In this document: piece after piece, positions 49,666 to 60,909 of the stretch
Layout: every line of letters begins with the position of its first letter
How positions within the stretch are numbered: the first letter of the stretch is position 1
NCBI GenBank assembly: GCA_963576735.1
Contig: OY755170.1
Span: 15,050,567 to 15,114,566, forward strand
Direction of reading: 5' to 3'
DNA length: 64,000 bases
Source: Bedellia somnulentella
Lineage: Eukaryota > Arthropoda > Insecta > Lepidoptera > Bedelliidae
Position numbers and translations under genes: made by a program
The notes under the pieces: model-generated
Database searches by the model: none
Told to the model about the DNA's origin: nothing
Seen by the model: only the letters and a program-made list of their open reading frames with translations

Positions 49666-49860
49666 TTTTAACGAATAATAAACTGATGTAGGAAGTAATT
49701 ACGAGTTTATTTATAAAAGTACAAGATTCAAAATAAACAAACAGAACAGATCAGATAGAAAGATGTCAAGTGTCAGCTATCACATAAAACATCATAGACA
49801 AACAAAGGAGATTACACTTGATCACTTTAACCAAGAAGGTGTGAAGCTCACTTCTTAACA
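49666..49860 (-). repeat. Copia-2 3' LTR
   Basis: 195 bp, TGTTAAGAAGTGAGC ... TCGTTAAAA on the minus strand. An adjoining purine-rich tract (AGAAAAACGGGACGGGA on the minus strand) marks the 3' side. Confidence 0.93.
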
Positions 49861-49901
49861 TCCCGTCCCGTTTTTCTTCTAGGCTAAGCCTATAAGACAG
49901 C

Positions 49902-50755
49902 TCAGCTCTTTGATCCTTGGCTTGAACAGCGGCTTCGTAAGGAAGTGAGCTGCTTGGCTGCTTCAACTTTAAGAACCTTCAGGTTTCCAGCTAGAACACA
50001 TTCACGAACGAAGAAGTGCCGTATCTCGATGTGCTTTGTTCTCTGGTGCCTCTCGTATGGTGGGTCATGGGCTAATCGTATCGCAGACTCATTGTCCAAA
50101 TGAAGTTCTGAGTTGATCTCTCCAGTCACCATAAACTTAATTATTCTTTTGAGCCAAATAGCCTCTCTGGCCGTTTCACTGGCAGCCACTATTTCTGCCT
50201 CTGTGGAAGATATTGCAACGGTCCTCTGACGCCTGCTTTGCCAGGCAATTGCCCCTTTTGAATATATGCAGACCATTCCTGACGTAGATTGCCCAGTTGT
50301 GGGATCTCCTCCATGTTCCGCATCACTATAGCATTGAATGCATTTTGTCGCAGTGGAAGATTGGTATGTAATACCATAATTTACAGTCCCTTTGATATAG
50401 CGTAATATTCTCTTCACTCTCGCCACATCCTCTGGTTTTGGACTGTCTAAATTTCTTGAGACAACACTAACAGCATAAGCTATATCAGGTCTTGTCCCAA
50501 CAGCTAGATAAGAAAGCGCACCAACCGCTTGTCTGTAAGGGAATGGAGCGGCATCTTTATCGATTTCTTGCGGAATAGCATCTTTCACTATCGGAGTCAC
50601 AGCAGCTTTAGAATTTTGCATGTTAAACCTTTCTAGTAGGCGCTTGGCATAATTCTTTTGATCAATTCTTATTGATCCATCTGATTTCCTTTCAATTTCT
50701 ATTCCTAAAAAGTATGACCCAGATTTAGTTGTGATCTTAAAAAAGTAGTCGTAAT
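49902..50755 (-). pseudogene. Copia-2 reverse transcriptase end and RNase H
   Basis: SGSYFLGIEIERKSDGSIRI, GALSYLAVGTRPDIAYAVSV, then RNase H with CYSDAEHGGDPTTGQSTSG (Asp), VAISSTEAEIVAASETARE (Glu), HLDNESAIRL (Asp) and HIEIRHFFVRE. The last residues are out of frame. Confidence 0.9.
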
Positions 50756-51942
50756 TCACTCATAAATCTCTCAGTTTCATTTGCATTTGCTGAGGCAATC
50801 AATCCATCGTCAACATACAGCGCTAGGATCAGCTTCTTGTCCTTACTATCTTTGTTTCTGATGAAGAGACAAGGATCACTCTCACTCTGTTTGAAACCTA
50901 TTTTCAGAATATGTTCTGTTATGCAATGGTTCCAACAACGGGGAGCTTGTTTTAAACCATATAAACTTCTCTTTAGTCTACATACTTTATTTGTTTAGTC
51001 AGAATAGCCTTCAGGTGGCTTCATATAGATTTCTTCATTTAACTTTCCGTACAGGAAAGCCGTCGATACATCAAATTGAGACAAGGTCGAATTCTCTTGC
51101 GCAGCGACACTCATTACTGCTCTTATTGTGCTCGTCTTCGCCACAGGACTAAACGTCTCATAATAATCTAGTCCTTTCTTCTGCGAGTATCCCTTTATTA
51201 CCAAAAGAGCTTTATACTTACCAACCGTTCCGTCTGGATTGGTCTTGATTTTATAAACCCACTTGCAAGGAATCGCCTTTCTACCTCGGGGTAAATCTAC
51301 CAATTCCCACGTTTGATTTTCTTCAAGAGAGGTAATTTCGCTTTGCATTGCATTACGCCATTTGTCAGCTTCTGCACTTTCAATCGCTTGCTTGTATGTG
51401 GTTGGCTCTAACATGAGTTCATCATATTTTGATTGTGCGTGACAAACATTGCAAACAAAATCACGGTATCTACTTGGGGGTCTCAGATTGTCACGATTGC
51501 GTAAGGTCATCCTGCCTTCATTCTCTATTTCAGCAAGAGGAATTTGGGCGGCATTATCTTGAGCATCGTCGTACACATCATCTGCATTCCCAGTTTGAAA
51601 CCCTTGTTCTGTGTCTACATCTTCATTTTCATCATTTTTCTCATTATTTAATTCATCGTATCTGATTTCCAACTCTTGTTCAGTTTCAGGCTCTTGTTTA
51701 GTTTCAACGCTATTATCATTCACTATCACTTCTTCCACATCATCACGGTTTTCGCTGAATCCATACTGGAATCCCAAAAACTCAAGGTTGAATTCATTGT
51801 GGTTTGACTGGCTACTATTTGGTCTAGAATTTGTTAACTTCGGCTTCTCTAGTTTGCCTTTAGGTACTTGTTTGGACTCTCCCAAACTATCAACTTCTTG
51901 TCTAATTTTGTACGTTTCTCTTTTGGAACGTGAGGAAAACAT
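50756..51942 (-). pseudogene. Copia-2 reverse transcriptase
   Basis: After an acidic linker come RMTLRNRDNLRPPSRYRDF, ADKWRNAMQSEITSLEENQT, IPCKWVYKIKTNPDGTVGKY and FDVSTAFLYGKLNEEIYM. A stop at 50995 interrupts before RLKRSLYGLKQAPRCWN and the catalytic LALYVDDGLIAS (about 50800-50830). A slip near 50750 ends the frame. Confidence 0.9.
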
Positions 51943-52180
51943 GTCGTACCAATAACTCGTAGGTGCTTTATTCTAGGCTTACCATGCCATGATTCATACG
52001 GCGATTTTCCATCAACTCCCGGTCCCGTTCTGTTCAGGATATATACCGCTGTTGAAATCAATTCAGCCCATAAGCCCGCTGGCATCTCTCCATGGGCGTA
52101 CATCATGGCCCTTGCCATTTCCACAACCGTCCTATTCTCTCGCTCAGTTGGATTCTGTTGTGGGGTGTAAGGCATTGTCT
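51849..52180 (-). pseudogene. Copia-2 integrase, second part
   Basis: YTPQQNPTERENRTVVEMAR holds the catalytic Glu. LWAELISTAVYILNRTG and the C-terminal YESWHGKPRIKHLRVIGTTC follow. A frame change near 51890 leads to the next block. Confidence 0.87.
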
Positions 52181-52717
52181 CGGTATAGCATCAGTGATAG
52201 CTTTTGATGTACTTCAGACTTCTCGCGCATTACATATACCCAACGGTTCCCGGTATAGACATCTTTGAATAGCACGAAATATCTATTCTTCGCATAAGAA
52301 TATGGGAAAGGTCCGCAAACATCTGTACATATCAATTCAACAGGTCGGGTCACCTTTTCTCTGGTACCAAATTTCAGTCGATGAGATTTGCCATAGATAC
52401 AACCTTCGCATAGTTCTTTGTTGATTTCTGTTTTGATGTTCAGTTCTCTCTCAATAACTTTCTTATCGTGCATCTTATTCTGATGTCCAAAGCGTTCGTG
52501 GTAAAGTTGTATAAGATTTAACGTTGACAACCGATTAACTTCAATAGGCTTCAGACATCTCATTTCTAGGCGATAGAGATCACCACACCATGTCTGACTC
52601 TCTTTCCAATTAATCGCTCCTCACCGTTAATCTTCAAAACGCAAGTCGTTGGAGTGGATTCAAATGTACTGTTCTTATTTGCATCGTGCGCTGCAAGGAC
52701 GGAAAAAAGATTTCTGC
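52144..52717 (-). pseudogene. Copia-2 protease end and integrase, first part
   Basis: Resumes SRNLFSVLAAHDANKNSTF after the insertion. A slip near 52590 precedes CGDLYRLEMRCLKPIEVN. The integrase zinc domain has LYHERFGHQN and CEGCIYGKSH; the first catalytic Asp is in ICTDVCGPF. The frame is cut at MREKSEVHQKL: the segment with the second Asp is deleted near 52180. Confidence 0.87.
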
Positions 52718-52885
52718 TGACGCACAGTGATTCGCGTAGAACAAGTTAGCTGGACAAAATTATTTTTCGACTCGAATGGGTCTATATGTGCTTAATCATA
52801 CGTATTCTGTACTTTTTTTTACATTTCATGACTTAAGTTAAATGGGAGGGGGGTGGTGTAAATAAAAATACAAAAAATGAAAAAA

Positions 52886-52906
52886 TATATATATATATAT
52901 TAAAAT
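52886..52906. repeat. AT dinucleotide run
   Basis: An uninterrupted ATATAT tract just inside the left end of the Transib-like element. Confidence 0.8.
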
Positions 52907-53023
52907 AAATGCAAAAATCATGATTTCTTCCACATTAAACATTTTTCTAAACTTAAAACTAATATGAAAAACAAATGTTTACAAGTCAGCTACTTAAAAA
53001 ATAATATTCTATATATGTTACAA

Positions 53024-53331
53024 TCATTCCCTATGACTATTATCATCTGAAGAATCCGACTCTATGTAATCATTTTCATTACGAGGGATATTTACATAAG
53101 GTCGCGGAATGGGCACCGAAGGCGGGATAACTAATTTTAAAACTTCCGAATTTAACTTTTCAGGCTTTTTCCTGGGCATATCTCTGAAGGCGTTAATTAA
53201 AGGGTCGGATGTAGTTAAAAGCATGTGTAATAGGTCTGTATTCGTGGCAATGCGAGACGTCTTCCGCGTATTGTGCAAGTGAAATCGGCGCAGGTCTTTA
53301 TTACGCGCTTCTAGGGCTTCTTCGGAGAATT
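53024..53331 (-). pseudogene. Transib-like element protein, C-terminal piece
   Basis: Continues LPIGQF with SEEALEARNKDLRRFHLHNT after removal of the AATT element. It then reads RKTSRIATNTDLLHMLLTTS and an acidic end ESDSSDDNSHRE with a stop at 53024. The E..EARNK...H.RK pattern recurs in insect transposon proteins; function unknown. Confidence 0.65.
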
Positions 53332-54562
53332 CGGCTGTCCCAAAAAGAAAAGCAGTATGGCACATGGTCCTCAAAATCTAGGTATCAACATCATTCTACA
53401 AATAAAGCAAGTCCCTACAAGATGCAAAAACCCGTTCATCAAAAGAGGCTCTAGTTTTCGAGATAAAAAAATGAAAAACACAGCAAGTCCACTTGTGAAA
53501 AAGCGATCCCCAAAAACTAAACGCAGCAAGGAACAGTTACCAAAATTAAACAGAGTAAGTCGCGAGTCTTACTGTTTTTTATTAATTGTGAATGAGACTT
53601 GCTGGGTTTCCTTTATGGGGATTATGCTTGAAAAACGATGATGATGCCCACAAATTTAACTGTAAAGCACATGCCCGTCAACATTTAAACCTAAATTTCA
53701 CGAAATTTCTATTTGGCGCGAAACGGATTCCGCACGGTATTCGTTGGAGGTAGCTACAGGTACATCGGGGGATGCGGTAGCTACTTGTCGCCGTTCGTCG
53801 CATCGGCGCTAGAGCACGTTTTTACTGGATTTAATTATTTTTGCAAGCGTAATTTACTGTTTTTAAAGAGAATGGAGCGGAGTAGAATAATTTTGATTGC
53901 TGCATATTGCTGCTATCTAACAAACGGTCACACTCATATGAGTGATGATTCCGTTCACGGTAATATTGAACAAAGTTTACTAGAAAGCAATCAGTTTCTG
54001 ATTTCGAAGACTTCAAAAATATTGTGTTGCAATGTTAATAAAAAATCAAGATTGTGGAAACCCGATGCTTAATTTGATTGGCCAAAAAAGAAGAGGTGAC
54101 CACGACTCAATGGAGACCCTTTGAAAATTTTTCAGTTAGTTCTAGCATACAAAGGCATGGGGTGAAGTGACTATGTTGCTGACCGTACCGCAATTTAAAA
54201 AAGTTTAATTCCAATTATTTTGGTATTTATTGTGTTTTGTAGTGGTTATTTATTCTCTGCTATAGTAAATAACCAAAAATTACAATAGAACAAGGTACGT
54301 TGCTGTGTTTTTATATGGTAATCCAGAGCTAAATAAATCATGAAAACAAATTTTAAATTATTTAGTGCCGTAAAACATGCACGAATCAGTTAATCTACTT
54401 CTTTTAAATACAACTAATTGCGCAATCATAGTATCCATGACACCCAATACTTATATTGGTCGATTATTGTTAAATTTTGTGTGGCTCACCAAAAATATGT
54501 TTTTTCGCTCTCCTGAAAAAAATGGTTACTGTGCCATACTGCTTTTCTTTTTGGGACAGCCG
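53332..54562. mobile_element. AATT-flanked TIR element, unclassified
   Basis: The ends CGGCTGTCCCAAAAAGAAAA match in inverted orientation for about 33 bases. AATT is present at 53328-53331 and 54563-54566; one copy removed restores the host element's frame (QF|SEEAL). The internal frame at 53713-54072 has no recognisable domain. Confidence 0.85.
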
Positions 54563-54566
54563 AATT

Positions 54567-55483
54567 GTCCAATCGGAAGAAGTGCTGTTTTTAATACCTG
54601 TATACTTTGCACATGGATCTTATTCGCGGTAACGGGCATTAAATACCACGAATACAGACTTAGATACAGCTCACGCGTTTCACGACAAGCTTCTTCAAAT
54701 TTTTCTAAATTTATATCATAGCCTGAGGCAAGGGTTCTTAAGATAATATCAAATTTTCTTCCGCTTGCCTTCCGATCTACTAGCTACTTCTGCAGCAATT
54801 GCCAACTCTTTTGCACTCCATCCAGAAACTATGCCGTTAACACGTCGTTTTTTATTTTATATGATGACTCCTCAAAGCTCTTTTGAGGTCTTCCCGGTCG
54901 CTGAGCACCCTCAGAGAAGTGGTGACAACTGGAGGGTTAACAGACACCTTGAAATGAAAGTCTGTGCCTTCCAGCCATGTTTTATGCATAGAGAGAAACC
55001 TTTCCCTAATGCGACTAGCAATATTCCATTTTTGGGCTATTTTCGTGCTACTAGCAGCGATGCTCTTGGTAATATCACGCAAGGATACTTCGGTTATATT
55101 TGAGAGATCAAATTTAACCGAAAGGAAATCAAAAATGTGTGAATTTCTGTTTTCTTTATCGTGTTTGATCCACTCTTCGAAAAATTCAATTTTCGAAACA
55201 CTAAGCACTTGCTCTGTAAAAAAAATAAAAACAATGTTAGAGCAAAAAAGGAGCATGGAAATTGATGTTTAATATTAAGTTTAGACTTAGATCTACGACA
55301 TATATAAAATCTAACCCGGAGACATGTGGAGACAAAAAGTTGCAGTCTATAAAACATTTTAAAGTTTTTTTTTTTGTGTTTTTCCTACTATCCTTTAGAC
55401 CGTAAAATTTTATTGGATTTAGTTACCTAGGAGTAAGATTTCTATAAAAATATAATGTTCTTACCTGTACTAATAGGATCCAT
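54567..55483 (-). pseudogene. Transib-like element protein, N-terminal and middle pieces
   Basis: Exon 1 (55483-55465, MDPIST) joins exon 2 at 55213 through a GTAAGAA..TTTACAG intron to give MDPISTEQVLSVSKIEFFEE and DLSNITEVSLRDITKSIAAS. Near 54850 the frame jumps to VNGIVSGWSAKELAIAAEVA, ETRELYLSLYSWYLMPVTAN and KTALLPIGQF, so a large internal part (the expected DDE core) is missing. Protein family assignment relies mainly on the element ends. Confidence 0.62.
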
Positions 55484-55752
55484 AGCACAAAACACTGATT
55501 CTTTTACTGCACAAGTCATGAGGTGTTGTCGAATGTGTGGCAAAATTGCAACTGAGACGATTACAAATTAGTAATAGTCGTCATTACTTACCCTTTAACA
55601 CCTCATTAGCACGCCATAACGGGACTTTGCACAATCAATTCTTGGAAATGAGATAATAGGGTTGTTCTTGACAACATAAAACGATCAATTCCAGGAAATT
55701 GGACAATGACTTTTGTCCACCTAGCTTGTTCTACGCGAATCACTGTGTGACG

Positions 55753-55994
55753 GTGGGTACGTACCAAACATCCTTCAATGTTATTTGTAGTACTCTTCCA
55801 TCTACTTGTGCTTCTGCTCTAATGGTACCAATGCCTACTGCTTGGATCGCTTGCCCATTAGCGCCTTTTACGGCATGCTTACTCTTGAAATGGCTGAAAT
55901 CAACAAAAAGATCGTCTCTATTTGTTACATGGCTGGTTGCTCCATTGTCCACGTAAGAATGTACCGAATCTTTAGCTTTATCATCCGTTACGGA
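55753..55994 (-). pseudogene. Copia-2 protease, first part
   Basis: In frame with gag after its TAG. Contains YVDNGATSHVTNRDDL, so the active-site triplet reads DNG rather than DSG or DTG. It ends at KDVWYVPTV, where the Transib-like element inserted. Confidence 0.85.
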
Positions 55995-56861
55995 CTAGAC
56001 AGTCATGGTGACATTTTTGGTGTCCTTTTCTGACTTCTTTGGTCTGCCGTCACTGATCCATTTCTCACATCTCCTTACAAAATGGCCGAGTGAGCCACAA
56101 TAATTGCACTTCCTCTTGTCTTTCCGTTTGTCATCCTTGCATTCTTGTTTGCTTTTAGCTTTGACTTCTTTCTTTCCGGATTTCACCCATAATGCTTCAG
56201 CACGACTCGTGCCTTCATCGTTTTCTTCTGTTTTCACAAGGACCTTCTCATGTGAGCATAACTGCACCGTTAGATTGTCAACTGTGCGCTCATTCTTCGT
56301 AATCAAAAGCCAACTTGACTTGAATGTCAAATATTCCGGCGGCAGTGTATCAAGAATCTTGTATATTAGTAAAACATCTGGCAGATCCATTTCTATGTCT
56401 AGAGATGTATTTAATTCGTGCCACAGATTCTTCAGCGTCGAAACATGACTAGCCATATCGTGTGTGGCGTCTTTTTTATATGAGAAAAATGTCTGGCACA
56501 TTTCGAAGCTTTTATCTACTTTACATCCACTGAAAAGTCTATGTAGCTCATCCCACATGTCCTTTGCATAGGTAAAACGCATTATTTTCTCGAGTATGTC
56601 ATCTGGCAAGTTTGACATAATCAGGACAGAAATCAAGCTATCTAGTTTATCATATTCTTGTATTTCTTTCTCATACCTCGTTTTATCTTCAGGTGTAGCA
56701 TCAACCGACAGTGCTGGCCTCGGAGTCTTTCCTTCCAACACATCTCGTGCGCCTGGTATCCCTTTTAACACCATAAAAACCCTAAACTTCCATGTATTGA
56801 ACTTTTTGGCATCAAATTCGCCAATCCGAACCTTGGATATATCAGCGATAGATTTATCCAT
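55995..56861 (-). pseudogene. Copia-2 gag
   Basis: Likely start at MDKSIADISKVRIGEFDAKK (56861), with open frame upstream. It contains FNTWKFRVFMVLKG, the YAKDMWDELHRLFSG gag block and a zinc knuckle CNYCGSLGHFVRRC near the end. It ends at TAG 55997-55995; the protease follows in the same frame. Confidence 0.88.
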
Positions 56862-56965
56862 CTTCACTGTCGCCAAGTTCTGTCGAATTTTCGGAACCGT
56901 GTTTTGGTTTAACCACCAAAACAAAAATTTGACAATTTTCAGCACCAATTTAATTCGCAAATTGA

Positions 56966-56978
56966 ATCTCTGCTACCA
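56966..56978 (-). other. Copia-2 primer-binding site
   Basis: TGGTAGCAGAG on the minus strand is complementary to the 3' end of initiator tRNA-Met and abuts the LTR. This differs from the half-tRNA site of the younger Copia. Confidence 0.82.
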
Positions 56979-57134
56979 TTTTAACGAATAATAAACTGAT
57001 GTAGGAAGTAATTACGAGTTTATTTATAAAAGTACAAGATTCAAAATAAACAAACAGAACAGATCAGATAGAAAGATGTCAAGTGTCAGCTATGATCACT
57101 TTAACCAAGAAGGTGTGAAGCTCACTTCTTAACA
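56979..57134 (-). repeat. Copia-2 5' LTR
   Basis: 156 bp; matches 49666-49860 except for a 39-base gap. Confidence 0.93.
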
Positions 57135-57164
57135 TAGACAATGAGAAAATATGTGCAGTAAAAA

Positions 57165-57575: not shown

Positions 57576-57583
57576 AGTAAAAA

Positions 57584-58197
57584 ACATGAAAAAACCTGTG
57601 GATAAAAAATCTCTGCAAAGGGCTTTAGGAATGTTTAATTTTTTATGTAAATTTATACCAAACTATACTGATAAATCAAGTTGTTTGAAAGAATTACTGA
57701 AAAATGATGTAGAGTTTATTTGGAGTTTGCATCATGACAAAGCTTTTAATGAGTTGATTGCAAGTATAGTAGAAGCACCAGTTTTGAGTTTTTATGATAT
57801 AAATAAACCCTTGATGTTGAGTGTAGATGCAAGTATGAAAGGGTTGGGTGCAGTATTGATTCAAGATGGGAAACCGCTCGCATATGCATCAAAAGCATTA
57901 ACGGACTCTCAAACACGATATTCTCAGATAGAAAAAGAACTCTTGGCAGTTTGTTTTGGTGTAGAAAAGTTTAGACAATATGTATTTGGAAAAGATAATG
58001 TAGTTGTACAAACGGACCATAAGCCATTATTAGGGATATTTAATAAGCCGCTGCATAAGATTCCAACTACGTTACAAAGAATGATGTTGCGTTTACAATC
58101 TTTTAGATTAAATTTGGTTCACACACCTGGTAAATATATGTACATAGCCGACACTTTGTCTAGGGACTTATATGTACATAGCCGACACTTTGTCTAG
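57584..58197 (+). pseudogene. Gypsy RNase H
   Basis: Joins 49665 through 57140-57164. Contains LQRALGMFNFLCKFIPNYTD, then LMLSVDASMKGLGAVLIQDG (Asp), YSQIEKELLAVCFGVEKFRQ (Glu), VVVQTDHKPLLGIF (Asp) and LVHTPGKYMYIADTLSRD. A 34-bp tandem duplication at 58135-58202 breaks the frame here. Confidence 0.93.
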
Positions 58198-58202
58198 GGA
58201 CT
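58135..58202 (+). repeat. 34-bp tandem duplication in Gypsy pol
   Basis: The unit containing ATGTACATAGCCGACACTTT occurs twice, exactly 34 bases apart, and shifts the frame by one. Confidence 0.95.
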
Positions 58203-58951
58203 TTACAGCGGAAAGTTGTGATAAGGAAACATCATTTGACGACGTCGTATATCAGGTAGCAATGTTGATAGATAATTTACCAATAAGCAAAGATAATTGG
58301 AAAATATTATCAGAGTACTATGAAAAAGATAGAAATATGATTAATTTAAGAAAATTCATACAATTAGGTTGGCCTGAGTATAAAAATTTGCCAGAAGGGT
58401 TAAAACCTTATTTTTCGTTTAGAGATGAATTAGCGGTTGTAAAAGAATTAGTTTTTAAAGGAGATCGGATTGTAGTTCCGATGAATCTTAAATGGAAAAT
58501 GTTAGAAAAAATGCACACTGGTCATCCAGATATAAATAGAATGGTAAGTCGAGCTGAATTAACGATGTTTTGGGTTGGTATAAATCAGGATATAAAACGT
58601 TATGTTTACAGTTGCACAGTATGTCAGAAATATCAAAATAATAAGGTTAGGTGTGTTTTGAAATATAAGGATGTACCCACTTTACCGTGGTCAGAAGTAG
58701 GTTGTGATATTTTTGAGTTGAATGGAAAATATTATCTTGTAGTAGTTGATGCTTTATCCCTTTACATTGAAATGAGTCGACTCAATGATTTGCGTGCTGT
58801 TTCGGTAATTGATTGTTTGAAATCGATATTTGCAAGGCACGGTATACCAGTTGTTGTAAATACGGATGGAGCTTTATGTTTTGATTGTAGTTTATTTAAA
58901 GATTTTAGTAAAAAATGGAATTTCACTCATATAATTTCTAGTCCGCATTAT
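58172..58951 (+). pseudogene. Gypsy integrase, first part
   Basis: Zinc domain HTGHPDINRM ... CTVCQKYQ; core with VGCDIFELNGKYYLVVVDAL (first Asp) and VVVNTDGALCFDCSLFKDFS (second Asp region), ending ISSPHY where a LINE end inserted. Confidence 0.92.
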
Positions 58952-59278
58952 TATATATTATTATATTAGATGGGCGATAAGCGCCACGGGTTTCCGCACT
59001 GAGCCCGGCATGGCAAGCCATTGTACGTGGACCAAGTGGTCATTTAATTCTCCCAACCTAATTCCGTCCAGAAGGCGAGTAGCTTATCCAGGTCAGCTAC
59101 TGCCTCTGGGAGCGACTTTATGGATCCTATCGTGTTATAGCGGATATCGGCTACCCCCGTGCATTCCTGGAGCACGTGAGCAACCGTTTCGTCAGCTTCC
59201 ATGCACGCTCGGCACATGGGGCTGTCGGTAATGCCTATAGTGTATAAGTGTTTATTTAGTGTGGTATGTCCTGTAAGA
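58952..59278 (-). mobile_element. 5'-truncated LINE end
   Basis: CTAGTCCGCATTAT is duplicated at 58938-58951 and 59279-59292 (14 bp). The A/T tail lies at the left, so the copy is antisense. The minus-strand frame has LTGHTTLNKHLYTIGIT and the zinc motif CRACMEADETVAHVLQEC, the usual LINE C-terminus. Confidence 0.92.
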
Positions 59279-59292
59279 CTAGTCCGCATTAT

Positions 59293-59432
59293 CCACAATC
59301 AAATGGGTTAGCTGAAAGTACAGTGAAAGTGATGAAAAATATTTTGAAAAAATCAATAGATGCTAAAGAAGATTTTTATTTAGCTTTGCTTAATCAAAGA
59401 ACCACGCCAAAAGAAAAAAGAAGATCACCAAC
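59293..59432 (+). pseudogene. Gypsy integrase, middle part
   Basis: PHYPQSNGLAESTVKVMKNI contains the catalytic Glu region, followed by DFYLALLNQRTTPKEKRRSP at the viral insertion site. Confidence 0.92.
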
Positions 59433-60653
59433 AGGGTTCGTTAGGTCGAAATGGGTTAAAAGCTCTCTCCTATTATAATCAGAGTTCAAAGGCCCGTTGA
59501 TTGCTGCGTTAACAAATTTTTCAGCTAATTCCAGGGACCTAGTGATAGGCTCATTAATCACATTTCGGCGTGCAGTGGGAGTTTGCAAGGTAACGGTTTG
59601 CTCTATATTCAAGAAATAGCAAAATTTCTTGAGCTCCATATAATTCATATCATCTGCTTTCGGAATGAGCGCAGGTATCAGGCCATGACATGAGTCAAGA
59701 TAGCTGGCACTTCTGTGATCATCCCGTAGTCCAACTTGTACTGCATCGTCATACAAGTTAAATCTACTTTCCCTCTCACTTCTGTCTTCACTACCACAGC
59801 AAGTGCAATCTGTGGAAAAGAGGCTGTGATTCTGCTCAGTGTGATTTCTTTTGCCGCCATCTCAACCCTTTCGCCTCTCTTACGACGAGACACTTCTTCG
59901 TCTGAGTCGCTCTTTATGCCATATGTCCTAATCTTGGTCTGAAGCGCTTCTTTGACTTCTTTATCTATTGTTAATAATATTTTCCTCAAGTTATTGCCCC
60001 TGGTTAAGAATAGTGTTGTTAAGAAAAGAACGTCGTTTGCTAGGTTGGCCTTTTCTGACACAGTGAAAGTGAGACTGTCCAGAGTCAAATTCCATTCCTT
60101 TGTTCTGTTCGTCTCATTGAATTTGGCAACAGCCTTAGCCATTTCAGCAATGACAACCACAGGGTGGAACCCCTCATAAGCCATGAGTCTCACTAAAGAA
60201 GAGGTAGCGTCAAAATTAATCTTTCTGACCTTGCCGATTATAGCAGCCCTTACCATGTCATAGTCAGTTGGGTTGACAATGCTAATTTGACTATCAGCAA
60301 TGTCATCCCTAGTGCTTGTGTCCAGTTGCAAAAATCCATGGAGGATGTCCCATTCACCAACTTCTGAGGTGTCGGCAATATCATCAAATCCGCTTCCTCC
60401 ACTGGCCTGGCTCTTTTTCTTAGGCGTTTCAGGAGGAGGCTTAGTCAAATCAGCGGGGTTAGCGTAAATGGCCTCCCTTCTCTTTGGTTCAGGACTGCGT
60501 GGCCCTTTACCTTCCCCCCAGCATGGCCTGGTACAGCTGGCATCAGCGGTTCTGGGTTTGCCTTGGCGTCGGATGATTGATGTCCAGAGCTCATGATTCT
60601 ATACTTGTCTTTCTATTTGTTTTAATACTAGGTCTGTGTGTCTTTTTTTTCAG
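59433..60653 (-). other. Endogenous viral element: phenuivirus-like nucleocapsid, degraded
   Basis: Antisense insertion in the Gypsy integrase gene. The frame runs from ATG about 60592 down to 59433 in three blocks, with slips in a G-run near 60505 and between 59680 and 59756. The central block resembles the phlebovirus/tenuivirus nucleocapsid family: LMAYEGFHPVVVI, FLTRGNNLRKIL, KIRTYGIKSDSD, ITLSRITASFPQIA. A C-terminal helix pair follows. It is longer than typical members (about 380 versus about 250 residues), with a basic/Pro-rich N-terminal extension and a charged insert after KSDSD. The C-terminus is cut off. The flanks carry a 15-bp near-duplication (59418-59432 and 60654-60668, 13 of 15 identical). 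In known viruses this protein coats genomic RNA. Confidence 0.78.
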
Positions 60654-60909
60654 AAGAAGTTCACCAGCTGCTTGTCTGATGGGTAGAAATTTAAGAACTA
60701 ACATTCCTTGTACATATAATAGTTTGAAACCAAAATTTAGTATCAATGATGTTATTAAATTAAAACGAGCTGAAAAATTAAGAATGGAGAAATATTATAA
60801 CAGAAAGGCTTGTAAAAGACCAGAATACTTTCAAGGTCAATCAGTTAATTTTAAAAGACTTCCTAATTGTTCATGGGAACCGGGCATCATATTAGGGAAT
60901 AGTGGTTAT
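60654..60909 (+). pseudogene. Gypsy integrase, C-terminal part
   Basis: Resumes RRSSPAACLMGRNLRTNIPC in the same frame as before the viral insertion, then INDVIKLKRAEKLRMEKYYN, FKRLPNCSWEPGIILGNSGY. It is cut by the TTAT-flanked element. Confidence 0.92.

Follow-up and report, generated by a model that had tools for sequence, protein, structure and literature searches.

Endogenous nucleocapsids (N) date and record past infections. Genera within the Phenuiviridae are assigned by L protein phylogeny, and phenuivirus mRNAs, which carry 5' caps derived from host mRNAs, have no poly(A) (PMC12641553). A phenuivirus of moths and, separately, endogenous N of rhabdovirus type have been described (excerpts of PMC8232680), and in Aedes, Gypsy and Pao elements show an enrichment of viral integrations in their vicinity, with PIWI-interacting RNAs coming from such loci (excerpts of PMC5497376). 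Here we analyse a window of 64,000 nucleotides from the moth Bedellia somnulentella (contig OY755170.1, positions 15,050,567 to 15,114,566), in which a phenuivirus-like N gene fragment lies antisense in the integrase gene of a Ty3/Gypsy retrotransposon. Among the precedents, the phlebovirus-like NP elements of Ixodes scapularis also represent a phenuivirus-type N in an arthropod genome and have structures said to suit an mRNA template, although the excerpted text (PMC2987831) does not call them mobuvirus-like. AeBunya1 of Aedes aegypti likewise is bunyavirus-derived DNA within a long terminal repeat (LTR) retrotransposon; it differs in that its host is a mosquito and its carrier a Pao-Bel rather than a Gypsy element, and the bunyavirus tree in the excerpts of that report is built on the G gene (PMC5497376).

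The viral insert, a fragment of the nucleocapsid gene plus 5' untranslated region, occupies 59424..60653 on the minus strand (1230 bp; its edges were placed manually by comparing the window with Gypsy siblings). To its left, the Gypsy integrase (59279..59423, plus strand) is 97.9-98.6% identical to 11 siblings, Pfam recognising it as integrase only below cut-off (rve_3, 13.7 bits), and to its right Gypsy sequence resumes (60654..60909, plus strand) at 97.6-99.2% identity to 11 siblings over 254-256 bases, in a frame for which Pfam gave no match; right-flank rows that match past the Gypsy part were left out of these identities. The left flank has 28 other matches in the genome (94-99% identity), 11 of which were read for an empty site, and in all 11 the Gypsy sequence continues without the insert. 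It is because these siblings run on uninterrupted that we place the bounds at 59424 and 60653. Alignments of the left flank end at 59423 in 27 of the 28 copies and earlier in one; the query itself ended at 59424, so that this amounts to a difference of one base only. Twenty flank matches, the locus itself included, gave six loci, and five of them were read. Absence of the gene from every sibling site read rules out that the nucleocapsid is regular Gypsy cargo.

Both edges carry AAGAAG, at 59418..59423 and 60654..60659 (neither assigned to a strand), while each of the 11 sibling sites has a single copy, which resembles a 6-base target-site duplication and makes the two copies candidates for one. 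Insert and one AAGAAG together count 1236 bases, a multiple of three, and if AGAAGA is taken as the repeat, the integrase frame stays open after excision of the insert with one codon more than the sibling site. Composition, measured on 59440-60650, sets the insert apart as well: its guanine-cytosine content is 0.44 versus 0.35 in the left and 0.32 in the right flank, and its observed-to-expected CpG ratio is 0.53, the left flank having 0.88 and the window as a whole 0.87. As is asked of an endogenous viral element, a viral gene is joined on both sides to host DNA and an empty site is found elsewhere. To our minds a viral origin of the insert is near certain, and it is highly probable that this is an endogenous viral element in the full sense, i.e. 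of viral origin and with N RNA captured into the window Gypsy by whichever route. That the virus infected the germ line is what one would ordinarily conclude from a viral insert found in an assembly.

Most of the nucleocapsid is encoded by an open frame of 306 codons (59681..60598, minus strand; open reading frame 59678-60598), which in Pfam matches the Tenuivirus/Phlebovirus nucleocapsid family Tenui_N (PF05733) at 44.2 bits against a cut-off of 25 (E 2.3e-11) and, at E up to 1, no other family. The longest sense open frame of the insert has 306 codons, whereas none of 1000 shuffles, made by permuting non-overlapping base pairs, gave one of more than 149. A chance open frame is ruled out by the profile match and the shuffle test, and a transposon or cellular protein by Tenui_N being the sole Pfam family for the main piece; weak rows among PDB structures, i.e. 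a phage recombination protein (E 0.3-0.4), Jumonji (E 0.075 and worse) and BRCA2 (E 0.4 and 0.79), were treated as noise. Ten database relatives were found. Over aligned parts, the 306-codon frame is 48-84% identical to database relatives and genomic copies, except for the copy on contig C19, whose gapped N-terminal piece it matches at 40%. PF05733 was matched at E 0.01 or better by all six rows of set A1 and by eight of the 12 rows of set A3; one relative, P0006, gave no PF05733 match. Structure matches were made with the model of relative P0002 rather than of the window protein, and in the viral structure library the best match of this model is N of Euproctis pseudoconspersa bunyavirus (E 1.6e-13, 36% identity, 351 columns), ranks 1 and 2 both being Mobuvirus N proteins.

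Near 59690 the homology switches frame, and a C-terminal nucleocapsid piece follows in the other frame (about 59424..59690, minus strand). It has no Pfam match by itself and is 57-87% identical to pieces of P0002, P0004, P0005, P0007, P0009, P0010 and the genomic copies on contigs C19 and C27. The last 38-39 residues of relatives are missing (by hand count, 39 relative to P0004 and 38 relative to the C19 copy). Less firmly, comparison with the C19 copy suggests a further frame change near the N-terminus, somewhere between about 60550 and 60510: the 60448-60612 frame aligns weakly with that copy (one of 500 shuffles equally good), and a strong alignment is obtained with residues 1-60 of the 306-codon frame (none of 500 as good), mainly in the second half of that stretch. 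With such a change suggested, the 306-codon frame probably opens with residues that are out of frame. An ATG at 60592..60594 (minus strand), in the 60445-60612 frame and 47 bases on from the initial base of the terminal-like motif described below, is likely to be the original start codon; blastp of this frame against P0001-P0006 gave no match. Taken as it stands, the window copy reads as a pseudogene.

A sequence-only reading had proposed an endogenous phenuivirus-like nucleocapsid inside a Gypsy integrase gene at 59433..60653, and on this the profile match, the ten relatives, the structure matches of one of them and the empty site agree. The antisense, non-transposon frame with the blocks AYEGF, LTRGNNLRKIL and LSRITASFP is present as described, the Gypsy coding flanks are borne out by Pfam matches and, on both sides, by sibling copies, and the PF05733 search it had called for gave the score above. 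Its interval ends where the insert ends but starts nine bases inside it, and the view of the frame as one protein gives way to the frame switch near 59690.

The window copy (on contig C69) is not alone. A protein search of the host genome (549 Mb, 486 contigs) gave six matches: the window copy itself, a pair on C27 at 6.05 and 6.07 Mb, and a copy on C19 (10.17 Mb) that accounts for the other three as separate pieces. A profile search picked up three places; one of these is a more distant N on C27 (5.73 Mb), which scores 51.1 bits there and 51.8 when tested as a protein against PF05733. The profile search overlooked the C19 copy and the second C27 copy, so that genome counts are lower bounds. 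Between window and C27 copies, 250 codons differ by 26, 20 and 140 changes at codon positions 1, 2 and 3, the proportions of differing sites being 0.83 for synonymous (pS) and 0.08 for nonsynonymous sites (pN). Window and C19 copies differ similarly over 97 and 89 codons (pS 1.01 and 0.96; pN 0.10 and 0.09), as do C27 and C19 over 97 codons (pS 0.84, pN 0.09). Hence, among the three loci synonymous sites are saturated and 8-10% of nonsynonymous sites differ; a dN/dS bootstrap, finite in 45 of 1000 resamples owing to this saturation, was not used. From this saturation in the face of a conserved protein we conclude that the divergence arose in replicating viruses, and we read C69, C27 and C19 as separate captures. 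Duplication after integration is ruled out by the same saturation as the origin of these three copies. The C27 pair at 6.05 and 6.07 Mb is, judging from a pS of 0.014 over 109 codons and from shared blocks (two neighbouring ones 96% identical, a third 83%), one duplicated locus.

The surroundings of these copies differ. At C19 (C19:10166277-10166863) the copy lies between DUF1759 frames (the match exceeds the cut-off in one of the two) and an integrase frame, with a non-LTR-like reverse transcriptase frame also at the locus. Pfam gave nothing for a frame there that carries SYVPSKDNPADLVSRG, a motif which, like DUF1759, we take to be a Pao/BEL feature. Three pieces make up this copy, a stop interrupting one of them, and the two pieces tested against PF05733 scored 23.1 and 22.2, under the cut-off; the copy's 3' end is followed by 13 A, poly(A) being unexpected for a phenuivirus mRNA. 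The distant N on C27 (C27:5734183-5734614) has a frame that begins about 250 bases downstream of a DUF7041 frame, presumably a marker of Gypsy-like gag. No family was found for the frame adjoining the 6.05-Mb copy, and no LTR-element gene was shown there (Pfam tests of neighbour frames covered four of 11 listed at C19 and one of three at 6.05 Mb). That copy has 343 open codons, and an insertion of about 100 bases, flanked by a short AGATCCCTGGA-type repeat, is seen in its C-terminal part (about 2400-2520 of the locus read). Its duplicate at 6.07 Mb is, by eye, cut off by sequence with transposase-like frames. A search for the L gene (Bunya_RdRp, PF04196) gave no match in the host genome, with control genomes equally silent, and the insert has no L gene linked to it. 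Two scans of viral contigs gave none that could be confirmed.

The right edge of the insert may bear on which viral RNA was copied. At its sense 5' end, ACACACAGAC follows 12 non-viral bases and is one base off the published phenuivirus terminal decamer. This terminal-like motif, ACACACAGACC (60631..60641, minus strand), agrees in nine of its first ten bases with ACACAAAGAC, which excerpts of PMC8652140 give for the segment ends of uukuvirus and a shrimp virus, calling phlebovirus and tenuivirus ends similar. ACACANAGACC has one match in the window and at least one in seven of 100 whole-window shuffles; decamer matches with one mismatch number six on both window strands, which leads to 0.003 expected in the 69 starting positions tested. 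Of the conserved phenuivirus segment ends (5'-ACACAAAGAC) a single candidate is visible, at nine of ten bases, the other being absent as the insert ends inside the gene. Between the motif and the right AAGAAG lie 12 bases, CTGAAAAAAAAG in sense (60642..60653, minus strand), that are neither Gypsy nor recognisably viral. With mRNA caps derived from the host and leaders of 12-18 nt quoted for orthotospoviruses and an emaravirus (excerpts of PMC8148189), a non-viral leader of 12 bases would fit a captured mRNA, and we give even chances to CTGAAAAAAAAG being a cap-snatched host leader on captured viral mRNA.

The best explanation for these findings is that the insert is a reverse-transcribed N RNA fragment of a mobuvirus-like phenuivirus, placed antisense in one Gypsy DNA copy. 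A viral polymerase would have made a capped N mRNA with a stolen host leader, on which a cellular reverse transcriptase, probably that of a non-LTR element, would have begun within the gene, close to its 3' end, and run on to the capped 5' end, so that the N mRNA was captured minus its last 38-39 codons. The complementary DNA (cDNA) would then have been joined at a staggered break, giving rise to the AAGAAG repeat, and the captured copy would have decayed as a pseudogene. Some observations weigh against this scenario. The AAGAAG edge repeat sits in a purine-rich tract and hence is weak on its own; the 12 bases could possibly be filler instead of a leader; and the 3' edge of the window copy, which falls inside the gene, has no poly(A), a criterion for target-primed insertion of the L1 type. 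Because poly(A) is absent here, we propose L1-type insertion as the likeliest mode of working and not as membership. Moreover, one base beyond the left edge TCACCA is common to viral and Gypsy sequence, and this would suit another route for the same viral origin, in which Gypsy reverse transcriptase inside a Gypsy particle switched to the viral RNA and back before the chimeric cDNA integrated whole. Such template switching may also draw on the enrichment of mosquito viral integrations near Gypsy and Pao, including one bunyavirus integration inside Pao-Bel (excerpts of PMC5497376), and on two further N copies that adjoin or lie between LTR-element-like genes. It does not, however, need exit and re-entry within the same six bases, which is exactly what insertion at the DNA level yields, and the 11 sibling sites read are without insert, although a single chimeric copy would appear identical in this respect. 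All in all, we regard template switching as possible yet rather doubtful.

That the nucleocapsid was retained as a working host gene seems very improbable. Despite the surviving 306-codon frame and the 343 open codons of the 6.05-Mb copy, the homology of the window copy is broken by a frame change, its C-terminus is missing and the transposon around it, to which it runs antisense, is damaged; the C19 copy is broken up and carries a stop; and the saturation of synonymous sites between copies is in keeping with changes that took place in viruses ahead of capture. Nothing was seen in favour of an artefact of assembly or of contamination from an infected specimen, and it can practically be dismissed given Gypsy on both sides, the edge repeat, the frame change and N loci on other contigs.

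Upstream of the insert, the host Gypsy pol encodes RNase H and integrase (57577..58951, plus strand; PF17917, PF17919, PF17921 and rve) and is 95.4-99.2% identical to 11 siblings. A truncated non-LTR retrotransposon (58952..59278, minus strand; zf-RVT at 24.2 bits, below the cut-off of 27.5) represents a separate insertion in the same Gypsy. The perfect 14-base duplication CTAGTCCGCATTAT at 58938 and 59279 flanks this fragment (58938-59292), and an open integrase frame results from joining its flanks. In Gypsy pol, a perfect 34-base tandem duplication (58135-58202) shifts the frame of the window copy and, judged from overlapping alignment blocks, is apparently absent from the 11 siblings. Further upstream, at 49666-57135, about 7.3 kb whose minus-strand frames look Copia-like lie between direct repeats (115 and 43 bases, each with identical copies), apparently an element inserted in the same Gypsy, whose reverse transcriptase frame stops at 49671. 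By eye, the whole window (1-64000) is dense with hAT-like, mariner-like, long interspersed nuclear element (LINE), Copia-like and Gypsy frames.

As for age, 19 mismatches separate the window Gypsy from one sibling (L009) over two blocks, of 783 and 593 bases, and a difference of 0.1-1.4% is seen between nearest neighbours in the set of 11 siblings. Insect mutation rates are near 3e-9 per site per generation. If made into Gypsy DNA, the insertion would be younger than the window Gypsy copy and, as a rough inference, at most a few million generations old.

What this locus offers is an endogenous record of a mobuvirus-like group, together with indications that one animal genome has captured several different strains of it. 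Its right edge may keep the 5' end of a captured viral mRNA, which would tell which viral RNA was copied. A present-day role, if there is any, would likeliest be that of a source of small RNAs against related viruses, an idea made testable by N copies in or beside LTR-retrotransposon-like genes. The boldest combination, in which the insert is the fossil of a single cap-snatched viral mRNA with a 12-base leader, at least three N captures took place, two of the captured copies lie within or between LTR-retrotransposon-like genes, and the copies are used as antiviral small-RNA templates, strikes us as a speculative and on the whole unlikely one.

How, then, does the window copy compare with known viruses and elements? 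Best matched by the P0002 model is Euproctis pseudoconspersa bunyavirus (Mobuvirus arnae, Phenuiviridae), which has the Tenui_N domain, a long N of 359 residues and a moth host (excerpts of PMC8288992), yet it is exogenous, with three segments and a full N, whereas what the window has is a gene fragment, broken and lodged in host DNA. Mothra and Narangue viruses (Mobuvirus) share the long N (328 and 424 residues) and match P0002 at E 1.6e-5 and 5.1e-3, but at 17% and 14% identity only, and they too are exogenous. Phlebovirus N structures (Granada, Toscana, Rift Valley fever) appear similar in fold to the C-terminal part of P0002, with the LTRGN block aligned, but are about 245 residues long, have no long N-terminal part and reach 14-24% identity in 17 bunyavirus rows. 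Because the Mobuvirus members listed include N proteins with 328, 359 and 424 residues, the greater length that the sequence-only reading had taken for a sign of an undescribed lineage is instead a trait of a described group, and its proposal of such a lineage is only partly supported. The opening residues of the N-terminal extension that it noted are probably out of frame; a new species or genus beside Mobuvirus may nonetheless be represented. Unnamed proteins of Brenthis ino (P0006) and Euphydryas editha (P0008) belong to the same N family but are 62% and 55% identical over partial lengths; because they lie on contigs of 29 and 16 Mb they are very probably endogenous. Among the titles and abstracts listed on endogenous phenuivirus N and Lepidoptera, none concerned a mobuvirus-like endogenous N, a coverage that mostly excludes subscription journals and so leaves absence unproven. 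In kind, the window insert is an already known thing, an endogenous viral element, and well supported as such; its capture junction is unusually readable, and there is evidence for repeated capture.
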